A DNA stretch of 64,000 nt from Bacteroidales bacterium KHT7 (GTDB lineage: Bacteria > Bacteroidota > Bacteroidia > Bacteroidales > Bacteroidaceae): the NCBI GenBank assembly GCA_900102385.1, contig FNBQ01000021.1:1-64000 (forward strand), given 5' to 3'. The translations under genes were made by a program, and so were the position numbers. This document shows, piece by piece, positions 6,951-40,558 of the stretch. A model generated the notes under the pieces. That model saw nothing but the letters and a program-made list of their open reading frames with translations, did not search any database and was not told the DNA's origin. The stretch's first letter is position 1, and the number at the start of each line of letters is the position of its first letter.

Positions 6951-7160
6951 TTGCATTAGTATACGCATCTCGAACCTTTCCCGAACCTTTCCCGAACCTT
7001 TCGGCTTGTTTTCCCGTACCTTCCCCGTAGCTACTCCGTTCCTACCCCGTAGCTACCACGTACCTTGAACGTTGCTTTTGGGGCTATTCTTTGTATAATG
7101 ATTCATTGTTTTGTATATTGTTGCAGAATGTTCTTTATGCCAAATTCGCATAAATAATTA
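6951..7160 (+). repeat. intergenic repeat element, copy 1
   Basis: The 487-bp gap between recR and the symporter holds no convincing gene. Two blocks are shared with a second copy at 36471-36660. The first is TATACGCATCTCGAACCTT, exact over 19 bp (6960-6978 and 36479-36497). The second is a 28-bp block at 7102-7129 matching 36576-36603 at most positions, with a core like TTGTATATTnTTnCAGAAT. Between the two blocks lies the 11-bp repeat array. The distance between anchors is 142 bp here and 97 bp in the other copy, a difference close to four 11-bp units. Outer boundaries are approximate. Confidence 0.7.
6968..7077 (+). repeat. degenerate 11-bp tandem repeat, about 10 units
   Basis: From 6968 the sequence divides without gaps into ten 11-mers: tctcgaacctt, tcccgaacctt (twice), tcggcttgttt, tcccgtacctt, ccccgtagcta, ctccgttccta, ccccgtagcta, ccacgtacctt, gaacgttgctt. 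The consensus is about TCCCGTACCTT. A unit of 11 is not a multiple of three, so this is not a protein repeat, and it is close to one helical turn. Confidence 0.8.
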
Positions 7161-36836: not shown

Positions 36837-39458
36837 ATGGAAGCAAAATATACTCCGGAGTGTATAACTCTGCTCGAACAAAGCAAGGAAACAGCAAAGA
36901 CTTTTGGTGGCGGCGGAATAAAGCCGGAACACATTTTCTACACGCTTCTGACGATGAAAAATCAGTATATCAACAGTATACTCGAGTCGTTCGGCGTTAA
37001 TATCCCCGATGTGATTAGCAACATGGAGAGCCATCTGCACACGTCAAACGTGCTTGAGGTTGGCAACAGCGGCGAAGAAGGCGTTCTCACGTCAGAGTCT
37101 ATGCGATACATCTCTGCTGCCGAGGACGAGGCTTACGTTCTTGGCGATGAGTTTACCGACCTCATACATGTCCTCCTGGCATCGCTCAAATTCACGATGT
37201 TCATCGGCACATTCTTGCTTAGCAAATACAATCTGACATACGAATCTCTGTCTACTTTTATCGAAAATGAGGGTACGGAAGATGAGATGCACCTGTCCGA
37301 CGATTCGTCTTACGACTACGAAGAAGATGATATTGACGACGAGGACGAACTCTTCGACGACAACGACGACGCCTTCTCGAAGAACGCTGGACAGCCGATG
37401 TTCGGAAACGGCTCTGCACCTGCTCAGAAAAGCGTGAAGCAGGCAAAGGCAACCCCTACCCTAAACAAGTATGCCGTTAATCTGTCGCAAAAGGCAGCCG
37501 AAGGCAAACTCGACAACGTAATTGGTCGCGAGAAAGAAATTGAACGCGTTATTCAGATTCTCTGCCGCCGAAAGAAGAACAATCCGATTCTTATTGGCGA
37601 AGCAGGCGTTGGAAAAAGTGCCATCGTCGAGGGATTGGCGCAAAAGATAGCATCGAAGCACATCGTTCCACAGTTGCTCGACAAGAAAATCTACACGCTC
37701 GACCTCTCGCTCGTGGTTGCCGGAACAAAGTACCGCGGACAGTTTGAGGAGCGTATGCAAGCCATAATGAAGGAGATGAAGCAGAATACCGACATCATCC
37801 TTTTCATCGACGAGATTCATACGCTTGTAGGCTCGGGCGCAGGCGGCGGAAGCATGGATGGGGCAAACATTCTGAAGCCGGCTCTTGCTCGCGGCGAGAT
37901 ACGCTGCATCGGAGCAACCACCACAAAGGAGTACAAATTGAGCATCGAGAAAGACGGCGCTCTGGAACGTCGTTTCCAGAAGGTAATGGTAGAGCCAACA
38001 AGCATCGAGGAGACAATAGAGATTCTGAATAAGACAAAGGAATATTACGAGAAGCATCATAACGTTAAATATACCGATGCTGCCATAGAGGCGTGCGTAA
38101 AACTGACTGAGCGCTACATCACAAACCGATGTCTGCCCGACAAGGCCATCGACGCCCTCGACGAGGCAGGCTCACGCCTTCAGATTCATATCGACGACAT
38201 TCCAAGTTCTATAATAAAGAAGGAGGAGGAATTGGCGCAGGTTATGAAGATGAAGAATAATGCTGCAGAGGAACAGAATTTCGAACTCGCAGCAAGCTTC
38301 CGCGACCGTGGAATTATGCTCGAAAACGAGATTCAGCAAGAGAAGAACAGATGGAAGGAAAATCTGTCGAAAAAGCGCATGACGGTAGACGCAGACACCA
38401 TAGCCGAAACCGTTTCGCTTATGAGCGGAATACCAATCCAGCGACTTGCAAAGGACGAGAGCGTGCGCATTAAGGATATGCGCCAGACGCTTAAATCGCA
38501 CGTCATAGCGCAAGATACAGCCATCGACAATCTGGTGAACGCAATCCAGCGCAGCCGCGTGGGACTGAAAGACCCTAACCGACCTATCGGCTCGTTCCTC
38601 TTCATCGGTCCTACTGGTATCGGAAAGACTTATCTTGCCAAAGAACTTGCAAAATGTATGTTCGGCACGGAAGATGCGCTAATCCGCATAGACATGAGCG
38701 AATACATGGACAAATATAACGTTAGCCGAATGGTTGGCGCGGCTCCGGGATATGTTGGCTATGAAGAGGGCGGACAACTGACCGAGAAAGTGCGCCGTCA
38801 TCCCTACTCTATCGTGCTTTTCGACGAGATTGAGAAAGCGCATCCCGACATCTTCAACATCCTTCTTCAGGTGATGGACGACGGCCGTCTGACCGACAGC
38901 GAAGGCCGTACGGTAAACTTTAAGAATACCGTAATCATCATGACATCGAATGTGGGAACACGCAAACTGAAGGATTTCAGCCACCAACTCGGATTCTCAT
39001 TCAACTACGGCGAACTGAACAAGGAACAGGCCGACGAGGTTATCAAAAAAGCCGTGAACAAACAGTTCTCGCCTGAGTTCATAAACCGAATAGACAAGAT
39101 TATCCAGTTCCAGCAACTCGACGAGGCTGCAATTCTGAAGATTGTAGACCTTGAATTGTCTAAACTCCATAAGCGCATCTTCGATATGAAGTTTGCCCTG
39201 CGTGTGTCTGATGCGGCAAAGAAATTCATAGCAAAGAAGGGCTACGACGTTCAGTTCGGAGCGCGTCCGTTACGTCGCGCCATCGAAAACTACATCGAAG
39301 ACGACGTTGCAGACTTGCTTGTAAACAACAATCTGCCGGAATGGTCAACCATCTCTGCCGACTACAACGAAGGCGACGACAGACTGACCATCAAAGTTGA
39401 AAATGAAAAAAGCAAAGATGAACAGGACGCATCTGCGCAGCAAACAAATTTAAATTGA
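36837..39458 (+). CDS. clpC: ATP-dependent Clp protease ATP-binding subunit ClpC
   Basis: Hsp100 unfoldase that feeds substrates to ClpP. 873 residues. A Clp N-domain (1 to about 140) is followed by a long acidic linker at about 143-183 rich in Asp/Glu ([20 protein letters not shown]). AAA1 has its Walker [10 protein letters not shown] near 254 and Walker [10 protein letters not shown] near 322. The short middle segment ([32 protein letters not shown]) has the UVR-type look of ClpC, shorter than in ClpB. AAA2 has IGPTGIGKT near 591 and [22 protein letters not shown] resembles the LGF loop that docks on ClpP. No McsA/McsB adaptor genes are nearby. It has its own promoter and no obvious terminator before the small RNA region. 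Confidence 0.93.
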
Positions 39459-39504
39459 TTTAAATCAATAAATACTAAATATCATGCTAAAAAACATTGT
39501 TTTA

Positions 39505-39536
39505 TTTGCATAAAAAGCACAGATGTCATATCTTTG
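39505..39536 (+). promoter_or_regulatory. promoter of the candidate small RNA
   Basis: TTTG at 39505-39508, 20-bp spacer, TATCTTTG at 39529-39536: a full match to the Bacteroidota consensus, about 50 bp after the clpC stop. No gene starts within 300 bp downstream. Confidence 0.7.
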
Positions 39537-39542
39537 CACCAA

Positions 39543-39783
39543 CAAAAAGAGATAAAGGTAAAGATTGTATACAAAAAAAGGATAATATTACTGGTGTTAC
39601 AAAGGTTAAAGATTGTAAGGATAATTAAAAAGGAAAGTTTAGTTTTAATTGAAGAGGTTAAAGATTGAACAGAAAAGATTCAAAGGGTAACAGAGAATAA
39701 AGATTGAATGAATAATTTTCGAGAAAGAACAAATTACTTGAGTAATGAGAAAAAGAGTCGCTTATTGTAAGTGGCTCTTTTTT
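39543..39783 (+). ncRNA. candidate small RNA with four TAAAGATTG repeats
   Basis: Predicted transcript of about 240 nt between a consensus promoter (39505-39536) and an intrinsic terminator (39752-39783). It is A- and G-rich with little secondary structure apart from the terminator and a small ATTACT/AGTAAT hairpin. The 9-mer TAAAGATTG occurs exactly four times (39559, 39607, 39659, 39698), and the surroundings are alike, for example AAGGTTAAAGATTGTAAGGATAAT for the second and third copies in part. The repeats would be exposed single-stranded. It matches no RNA family I know (not tmRNA, SRP RNA, RNase P or a recognised 6S form). The 3' end lies just before the GH25 promoter. An alternative is a long leader or decayed DNA; a 20-codon frame at 39708-39770 looks accidental. 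Confidence 0.5.
39752..39783 (+). terminator. terminator of the candidate small RNA
   Basis: Stem AAAGAGTCGCTT/AAGTGGCTCTTT (12 bp with two G-U pairs), 5-nt loop, then TTT. Confidence 0.8.
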
Positions 39784-39792
39784 CGTTATTTA

Positions 39793-39824
39793 TTTGGTGA
39801 TAACTGCGCTTTTTGCTATATTTG
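39793..39824 (+). promoter_or_regulatory. promoter of the GH25 lysozyme gene
   Basis: TTTG at 39793-39796, 20-bp spacer, TATATTTG at 39817-39824, then CAC. Full consensus. It overlaps the longer in-frame start at 39794, so translation must begin at 39845. Confidence 0.7.
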
Positions 39825-39844
39825 CACGAATTTTTTATACGAGC

Positions 39845-40558
39845 ATGAGATTCAGAATTGCAAAATATATTTTCACCGTTATACTTTGTCTGCTTTCATT
39901 CCTTACGCTGAACGCACAAAAAAGAACGAAAAATAAACTAACTGCTCCAATCCCGAGCAGCAATTATAGCGGAATAGATGTATCGCACCACAATGGCAAA
40001 ATTGACTGGAATAAAGTAAAGAAAAACCGCAGGATAAAATTCGTTTACATAAAGGCAACAGAGGGCGCAGACTTCGTAGACCCTGAATACAACCGCAACC
40101 TGAAAGGCGCGCGCAAGGCTGGTTTCAAAGTTGGAAGTTACCACTACTTTCACATGACATCATCGCCCGAATGGCAGTTCAAGAACTTCATAAAACATGC
40201 TCCGAAGAAAAAGCAAGACCTTGTGCCGATGGTCGACTTTGAGACGTGCGACGGCTATAGCATAAAGCGCACACGCAAGGCTCTGAAAAAATTCGTGTCT
40301 CTACTCGAAAAATATTACGGCAAAAAACCTATTATATATAGCACGATGTCTCACTATAACGACATCCTCGCTCCCGAATTCAACAGATATCACCTATATA
40401 TAGGCAGATATAGCGACTGTCCGCCTGTGATTAGAGGAAAGGGCACGTACACGATTTGGCAGTATAGCGAAACAGGAAGAGTGAAGGGCATAAAACGCTA
40501 CGTCGACCTTGCCAGATTCCATGACAAGCACAATCTGAAGGAACTTTATCTGCGCTAA
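39845..40558 (+). CDS. glycoside hydrolase family 25 lysozyme (muramidase)
   Basis: Secreted or periplasmic N-acetylmuramidase, 237 residues from the ATG at 39845, with signal peptide MRFRIAKYIFTVILCLLSFLTLNAQ. The GH25 TIM barrel starts GIDVSHHNGKIDWNKVK with Asp45, has FVYIKATEGADFVDP with Glu73, KVGSYHYFH, and the catalytic pair MVDFETC with Asp131 and Glu133. The end YTIWQYSETGRVKG is the typical final strand. It could act in wall turnover or against competitors; no holin, immunity or phage genes are nearby, which makes a phage origin unlikely. It has its own consensus promoter. Confidence 0.92.
   Translation: MRFRIAKYIFTVILCLLSFLTLNAQKRTKNKLTAPIPSSNYSGIDVSHHNGKIDWNKVKKNRRIKFVYIKATEGADFVDPEYNRNLKGARKAGFKVGSYHYFHMTSSPEWQFKNFIKHAPKKKQDLVPMVDFETCDGYSIKRTRKALKKFVSLLEKYYGKKPIIYSTMSHYNDILAPEFNRYHLYIGRYSDCPPVIRGKGTYTIWQYSETGRVKGIKRYVDLARFHDKHNLKELYLR

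Follow-up and report, generated by a model that had tools for sequence, protein, structure and literature searches.

Genomic context and organisation of the locus

The window considered throughout is the whole stretch of 64,000 nucleotides analysed from Bacteroidales bacterium KHT7. Between a chaperone gene and a lysozyme-like gene it holds a predicted transcription unit, hereafter the window RNA, whose features and neighbours are the following:

36837–39458, + strand: ClpB/ClpC-type AAA+ chaperone gene (clpC), upstream neighbour, with Pfam domains AAA_2, ClpB_D2-small and UVR
39455–39468, + strand: palindrome TTGATTTAAATCAA, a CRP/FNR-type operator, overlapping the clpC stop codon
39484–39497, + strand: second palindrome ATGCTAAAAAACAT, like the core of the Cur (BT4338) operator with two mismatches
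39505–39508, + strand: -33 element, of sequence TTTG
39529–39537, + strand: -7 box TATCTTTGC of Bacteroidota sigma-A type, kept in the sister species
39541–39783, + strand: predicted noncoding RNA of about 240 nt, its start placed by prediction to within a few bases
39557–39567, + strand: box 1, GGTAAAGATTG, whose duplexes with three of the four complementary sRNAs are better than 95% of those of shuffled boxes
39602–39615, + strand: box 2, AAGGTTAAAGATTG, then AAGGATAAT at 39617–39625
39655–39667, + strand: box 3, AGGTTAAAGATTG, passing the 5% shuffle test with three of the four complementary sRNAs
39698–39706, + strand: box 4, TAAAGATTG, the weakest, without a preceding GGT, passing with one of the four complementary sRNAs
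39708–39770, + strand: 20-codon ORF, probably not a gene, the sole ATG ORF of note, overlapping the terminator
39749–39783, + strand: intrinsic terminator, a 16-pair stem followed by a T run
39817–39825, + strand: separate -7 box of the GH25 gene, TATATTTGC, 3' of the window RNA terminator
39848–40558, + strand: GH25 lysozyme-like gene, downstream neighbour (Pfam Glyco_hydro_25, 6.8e-44)

The layout given in the preliminary description, a promoter followed by an intrinsic terminator with no gene between them, is borne out by a Bacteroidota promoter at 39505–39537, with a spacer of 20 nt between its -33 element and its -7 box, and by the terminator at 39749–39783. The four identical 9-mers that had been noticed there at 48, 52 and 39 nt from each other were also located, as four exact copies of TAAAGATTG starting at 39559, 39607, 39659 and 39698. 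Over the whole window, both strands included, TAAAGATTG is present in seven copies for 0.94 expected. When the 246-nt body was dinucleotide-shuffled 5000 times, a 9-mer in four non-overlapping copies never arose and one in three copies did so 17 times; with overlaps and simple runs allowed, 72 of 3000 shuffles of the window RNA body contained a 9-mer in at least four copies.

The body had likewise been described as unstructured, in agreement with its folding, which without the terminator is no better than that of shuffled sequences (z -0.54). Its C content is 4.8%, a value equally low in about one in 6000 same-length tiles of both strands of the window. The absence of a recognised RNA family was confirmed by an Rfam search of the whole window, in which no family reached its gathering score; the best sub-threshold match was GibS (RF04182), with 21.6 bits for the 115 needed. 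The KHT7 genome carries one full-length copy of the window RNA.

Two other elements came to our attention in this genome. At 6971–7001 of the window, an 11-nt unit (CGAACCTTTCC) is present in three tandem copies inside a putative 87-codon frame. A possible further RNA of about 80 nt, with TATATTTGC, GTAAAGATTGAATG and a strong terminator, lies on another contig (L399:11350-11470, G000:C41 near 91404); it is devoid of the TTGAYnTAnRTCAA operator described below and gave no Rfam match of note.

Conservation of the RNA and of its boxes

A search with the DNA of the window RNA among 150 genomes, including that of KHT7, retrieved a near-whole copy in one other genome, G001, which belongs to another member of the genus (the sister species); the remaining matches were short, most of them chance or promoter-only matches. 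When the body (39541–39750) is aligned with the sister copy, 203 columns match, 4 differ and 6 are gaps. Substitutions thus affect 4 of 207 aligned body bases versus 67 of 333 third codon positions of clpC (Fisher p 2e-11), the body rate being about one tenth of the clpC third-codon-position rate. On the flanks, the clpC tail and the GH25 gene are each 90.2% identical between the two species. Within the promoter, 14 of 14 operator positions are kept, as are 20 of 22 in the stretch with the second palindrome and 9 of 9 in the -7 box, for 63% and 71% identity in the two spacers, and 34 of the 35 bases of the terminator region (39751–39785) are retained. The preliminary description had made its candidate depend on conservation of the repeats in relatives that keep the promoter: the sister species keeps both this promoter and all four TAAAGATTG repeats. 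The view of the locus as a small RNA, independent and under selection, is well supported.

Other genera retain the promoter with anything from 0 to 4 exact boxes seen, four being present in a leader of Segatella copri (L116). Eight box-bearing loci of other genera were checked, and no clpC or GH25 homolog was found within 1.4–4 kb around them.

A CRP-type operator shared by a wide regulon

The operator of the window RNA starts 74 bp before the start of its -7 box. The same arrangement marks a regulon, with TTGAYnTAnRTCAA placed 74–75 bp before a -7 box. When searched as TTGAYNNNNRTCAA 57–63 nt before TANNTTTGC, it was present in 128 of 201 genomes of the family, for 2 with the reversed-pattern control. 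Eleven promoters of the KHT7 genome have the operator at this distance, and eight of these eleven also bear a Cur-like core, as compared with the consensus of the Cur (BT4338) operator printed in excerpts of PMC6989115. A set of 139 distinct promoters was pooled from several searches and includes 80 of at least 120 loci (L150–L269), the rest of which were scanned for complementary sRNAs only. With distances of 71 to 77 allowed, 88 of these promoters have an operator-to--7 distance of 74 and another 38 one of 75 (126/139).

Classified by simple criteria, the 139 transcripts comprise 26 terminator-bearing noncoding ones (among them the window RNA and its sister copy), 21 FopS-like RNAs, 10 with a terminator and an ORF, 76 without a terminator within 330 nt and 6 that were too short; some of the 26 noncoding terminator-bearing transcripts are probably leaders. 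Of the ten other regulon members of the KHT7 genome, six encode proteins of about 119 residues that are paralogous and begin, by eye, with a signal-like sequence; the remaining ones encode tiny and other proteins. The paralogous family filling six of these ten places includes L092, L094, L098, L099 and L100. One of its KHT7 members and a 117-residue protein of genus g3 matched no Pfam family above cut-off. DUF3836, considered as a name for these proteins, was set aside: no paper on it was found, and five regulon proteins were without a Pfam match above cut-off and four of these five without an NCBIfam match. Across genomes, tiny proteins of 25–48 residues, several of them hydrophobic by eye, follow the same promoters and box-rich leaders (L059, L080, L082, L087, L088, L101, L103, L106, L109, L116, L153, L168, L216 and L227).

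The search for CRP-type HTH proteins in the KHT7 genome returned one above the Pfam cut-off and a second scoring 22.2 of 27 bits. The nearest solved structure by sequence to the CRP-type HTH protein is 2GAU (E 7e-66), that of CrpPg, a P. gingivalis global regulator described in excerpts of PMC12040651 as independent of cAMP. This protein may be the one that binds the TTGAYnTAnRTCAA operator. HcpR/SnoA was also considered and not supported, the excerpts of the literature concerned showing no operator match. On sequence evidence, the window RNA is a real, selected and unannotated RNA belonging to a wide CRP-type regulon.

Boxes across regulon transcripts

The distribution of the boxes was analysed in 47 promoter-selected transcripts, from loci of which 10 were hand-picked, some from genomes already known to have boxes, 9 came from the KHT7 genome and the rest were chosen by program, some loci being closely related to each other. 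In this set, AAAGATTG is present 14 times in sense and once in antisense orientation (shuffled mean 0.7, maximum 4), and GGTATTA 31 times in sense and never in antisense (shuffled mean 1.2, maximum 4). The boxes are strand-specific features of regulon transcripts. A GGT[AT]A lies at most 14 nt upstream of AAAGATTG in 58 of 136 copies (shuffled mean 30, maximum 39), in a set that is enriched for AAAGATTG by construction. A role of the box as a translation-start element was discarded, boxes standing before ATG in 17 of 137 cases (12.4%) versus 935 of 5560 random positions (16.8%).

The KHT7 genome was sampled through 60 stretches totalling 1.17 Mb, about one third of the genome, of which ORFs cover 90%. 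GG[TA]TAAAGATTG or GGTTA.{0,4}AAGRTTG was found three times in these stretches, twice in FopS and once inside a 316-codon ORF. The second of these patterns has two copies in the window RNA, and any copy was present in one of 2000 shuffles. TAAAGATTG itself occurs 38 times in the 60 stretches and the window, 30 times in ORFs and 8 times outside; the latter consist of the four copies of the window RNA, one in a FopS/GibS-like RNA and three elsewhere.

Comparison with the FopS sRNAs

The FopS sRNAs of Bacteroides (RF04319) have in common with the window RNA a related box in the same sense, AAGGTTA(n)AAGRTTG. They are multicopy RNAs of 65–70 nt with the seed TTTTTCATAGTATTAG, whereas the window RNA is a single-copy RNA of about 240 nt without this seed. 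The RF04319 model gave no match on the window at its threshold of 56 bits, and it scored 73–78 bits on the four FopS copies of the KHT7 genome. The seed pattern TTTTTCAT[AG]GTATTAGATTNAAGG, with up to two mismatches, was found at four places of this genome, none of them on the contig of the window (C13). The window RNA is therefore not a FopS, in view of its lack of the seed, its length, its copy number and its model score.

Many loci among L150–L269 specify RNAs of about 65 nt beginning with GTGTTTTTCAT[AG]GTATTAGATTTAAGGTTAACAAAGATTG; the FopS R1' consensus is printed as GTGTTTTTCATAGTATTAGATTTAAGGTTAACAAA in excerpts of PMC11697453. RF04319 confirmed all six of the loci of this kind that were submitted (L107, L150, L163, L171, L210 and L219). 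FopS-like RNAs are driven by operator-bearing promoters in 23 of the 139 cases, in genomes of Prevotella type (e.g. L150, L154, L158), and the operator was found within 150 nt of FopS in none of 24 copies from the genus of KHT7, genus g3 and two other genera. Excerpts of PMC11697453 suggest that an unidentified regulator acts on fopS.

Some further features of FopS were observed. In the two KHT7 copies with CATGGTATTAG (G000:C35:12182 and G000:C35:135312), a Cur-like palindrome precedes the seed by about 40 nt; the other two copies lack it. FopS-core matches with up to two mismatches are present in genomes in which no RRM_1 protein was detected, eight in G014 and ten in G207, and in the KHT7 genome as well. 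FopS-like matches also occur in five phage records (PQ571285.1, MT836368.1 and three more), one from a phage of Bacteroides xylanisolvens; a phage copy of FopS is mentioned in excerpts of PMC11697453.

Predicted complementary sRNAs in the same genome

GGTWAN{0,6}AAAGATTG is a looser pattern of the box that cannot match the tighter boxes of the window RNA. It was found at 10 places of the KHT7 genome (none with the reversed control) and 9 of the sister genome (2 with the control). The ten KHT7 places correspond to four sRNAs complementary to the boxes, one FopS, one further sense-box RNA (L301), one mRNA leader (L318) and three positions in ORFs. Seven of the ten thus lie outside ORFs, although these make up 90% of the sampled sequence, and all seven non-ORF loci were found again in the sister species. 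The sense-box RNA has a promoter and a terminator in both species of the genus (L301:145-260, G000:C5 near 214, and L316).

The four predicted complementary sRNAs, named here after their contigs, are encoded on the reverse complement of the pattern at G000 C35:488, C41:126718, C22:14721 and C23:64347. By reading, all four are immediately preceded by a -7 box of Bacteroidota type and immediately followed by a terminator hairpin, in the layout -7 box, (A)TCGTTATCC..CAATCTTTTTACC (in one of them ..AACAACAATCTTTTTACC) and hairpin. The complement of the box that they carry is GTTATCC..CAATCTTTTTACC, or GUUAUCC..CAAUCUUUUUACC as RNA. Three of them match the Rfam family BTnc060 (RF04184) with E values of 4e-8, 9e-7 and 4e-5 (63.9, 57.2 and 49.1 bits), the alignments having in common the box-complement segment and the terminator; the gathering score of 228.9 bits was reached by none of the four, and the fourth had no match at E 0.1. 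The boxes are complementary to the BTnc060 consensus, GUUAUCCUGAAAACAAUCUUUUUACCUU..CUAAUACCUAUUG. BTnc060 is a proposed partner of the window RNA and not a relative. In a Prevotella MAG, a BTnc060-like sRNA (57.4 bits; L250:2308-2692) adjoins a FopS gene and is convergent with it. Matches of BTnc231 (RF04180) on L051, L104, L311, L300 and L325 were not retained, being far below the gathering score.

Predicted pairing

Duplex energies were computed by RNAduplex, which ignores internal folding and proteins. Among the 16 box-by-sRNA duplexes, 11 passed a 5% test, in which no more than 10 of 200 shuffled boxes could do as well. Box 2 reached -19.9, -21.0 and -19.2 kcal/mol with C35, C41 and C22 (1, 0 and 0 of 200 shuffles as good), and 10 of 200 shuffled boxes were as good with C23. 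With the whole body and two shuffle controls, C41 reached -24.2 kcal/mol (2 and 1 of 200 as good) and C23 passed both controls (8 and 10 of 200), and C35 (29 and 39 of 200) and C22 (33 and 26) did no better than shuffles. The pattern used in the sRNA search contained the core of the box, and the pairing is therefore in part by construction; the promoters, terminators, orthology, Rfam resemblance and GGAUAA:UUAUCC extension of the complementary sRNAs are not.

A test independent of this search pattern combined the segment of the published BTnc060 consensus with the 47 promoter-selected transcripts. Its mean energy was -26.7 kcal/mol, versus -16.4 to -19.7 for 12 shuffled segments, and it beat all 12 shuffles on 28 of the 47 transcripts, for 3.6 expected; the C41 and L250 sRNAs did so on 22 of 47 each. 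With the window RNA body the segment reached -26.2 (15 and 3 of 200 shuffles as good), and with the FopS RNAs of KHT7 and the FopS consensus -23.6 to -26.5 kcal/mol (0–2 of 200). The C35 and C22 sRNAs also pair with FopS (0–5 of 200) and C41 does not; the sense-box RNA L301 pairs with C22 and C23 (0–1 of 200), not with C35 or C41.

Pairing of C41 with the leaders of the KHT7 regulon was clear for L092 (1 and 3 of 200) and near for L093 (9 and 6), the eight others of the ten leaders failing or being marginal. As clear or near pairing with C41 is predicted for only two of these ten leaders, the window RNA, FopS, L301 and L318 are better candidate partners. Against 921 start regions of the KHT7 genome, the tenth best energy of the C41 seed was -19.8 (shuffles -17.4 to -19.5) and the best -24.9 (-22.3 to -25.8), suggesting a slight excess at most.

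A predicted multi-site sponge and its alternatives

sRNA sponges are RNAs that soak up regulatory sRNAs. The window RNA carries several unfolded sites for sRNAs of the same genome, with both sides conserved in the genus, and is therefore read as such a sponge. Titration of BTnc060-like sRNAs at multiple sites is predicted to be the most likely mechanism, to which we attach somewhat less than an even chance. The promoter, with its CRP/FNR-type operator and Cur-like site, would drive an RNA of about 240 nt that stops at its own terminator and exposes four single-stranded boxes, (AAGGUU)AAAGAUUG, some of them followed by GGAUAA. The window RNA would be made when a CRP-type, perhaps Cur-like, regulator is active and would pair at up to four sites with BTnc060-like sRNAs, which would be taken from their other partners, predicted to include the FopS sRNAs and box-bearing leaders. 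The layout of the locus, its conservation and place in the regulon, the complementary sRNAs with their own conservation and the computed duplexes are shown here, and we infer the transcription of both sides, their pairing in the cell, the titration and the effect on FopS.

Several accessible sites for an sRNA on one RNA are a property of sRNA sponges that the window RNA is predicted to share; it differs from other sponges as a stand-alone gene of a CRP-type regulon with four sites of one box, its titration being predicted. Protein-sponging RNAs of the CsrB/RsmZ type carry a repeated motif, and the window RNA similarly repeats an identical motif, but it has no GGA hairpin loops and its proposed partner is an RNA. 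Other box-bearing transcripts with an operator of this class share its spacing, the boxes and often a terminator of their own; they differ in box number and spacing, and many of them lead into proteins of 25–48 residues. Excerpts of PMC11697453 describe the host taxa as being without classical RNA chaperone homologs.

Titration of an RNA-binding protein and pairing with many targets through a repeated seed had both been raised in the preliminary description. A sponge for a box-recognising protein that also binds FopS is conceivable because the box is shared with FopS, which RbpB binds in B. thetaiotaomicron (a 55-nt site on FopS-10, according to excerpts of PMC11697453), and it would be compatible with the unstructured body. 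However, no RRM_1 protein was detected in the KHT7 genome, nor in 29 of 45 genomes, KHT7, its sister species and FopS-rich genomes among these 29, the Bacteroides ihuae control being positive, and the RNAs of this genome that are complementary to the box offer a simpler partner. Titration of RbpB or an RRM protein as such was thus rejected, and a protein sponge is unlikely, while deserving some weight. Pairing through the repeated motif has gained support, with four sRNAs of the same genome instead of 5' leaders as predicted partners. A base-pairing sRNA acting by its repeated seed on mRNAs that bear a CAAUCUUUAACCU-like site at the start codon would parallel FopS, which, according to excerpts of PMC11697453, pairs with the start regions of susC by means of a segment including AAGGTTAACAAA. 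The complement had been expected in 5' leaders, and no clear excess came out of 921 start regions covering about one third of the genome: five complementary 9-mers occur 7 times there versus twice in 830 mid-gene windows, for 4 versus 2 for the sense 9-mers, AT-rich words occurring more often in start regions whatever the strand (AATCTTT 17 versus 6, AAAGATT 42 versus 13). Duplex energies of the box unit fell within those of 12 shuffled copies (tenth best -15.6 versus -15.3 to -17.4). This test is weak because both FopS-type control queries failed to stand out on the same regions (tenth best -19.8 versus -18.8 to -20.1 and -21.1 versus -19.2 to -21.5). We regard pairing with mRNAs as improbable.

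The boxes could be general leader elements of the regulon, acting on stability, elongation or ribosome recruitment, in a leader-like locus with no role in trans, as many box-bearing regulon transcripts do lead into tiny proteins. Such a reading is rather unlikely, given a body more conserved than the flanking coding genes and boxes that are not preferred before ATG (17/137 versus 935/5560 random positions). That the transcript is the mRNA of a 20-residue protein, MNNFRERTNYLSNEKKSRLL (39708–39770), appears quite improbable: the frame is open in both species of the genus and the regulon includes genes for proteins of 25–48 residues, but the ORF extends into the terminator stem and no counterpart was seen by eye in the other multi-box RNAs compared. 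The frame shows one silent and one replacement change relative to the sister species, too few to reveal coding selection. Conditional termination in a 5' leader of the GH25 gene, suggested by the common strand and close spacing, is very improbable in view of the strong terminator and the separate -7 box TATATTTGC of that gene at 39817–39825.

Implications for the Bacteroidaceae

In open-licence PubMed Central, we found no description of the window RNA, of the TTGAYnTAnRTCAA operator class or of BTnc060 pairing, and no paper on BTnc060, which is an Rfam family. Extended from the predicted sponge to the whole family, the complementarity raises the possibility, which we consider doubtful, of a box/anti-box RNA network in the Bacteroidaceae, in which sense boxes produced when the regulon is on would soak up BTnc060-like sRNAs and thereby change the control of glycan uptake by FopS, the window RNA, with its four boxes and no coding role, being a dedicated sponge. 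In gut Bacteroides, glycan uptake is regulated by the FopS sRNAs. If such a network is real, a global regulator would be tied to the sRNAs of glycan uptake through RNA-RNA pairing, and RbpB, not detected in the KHT7 genome, would not be required.
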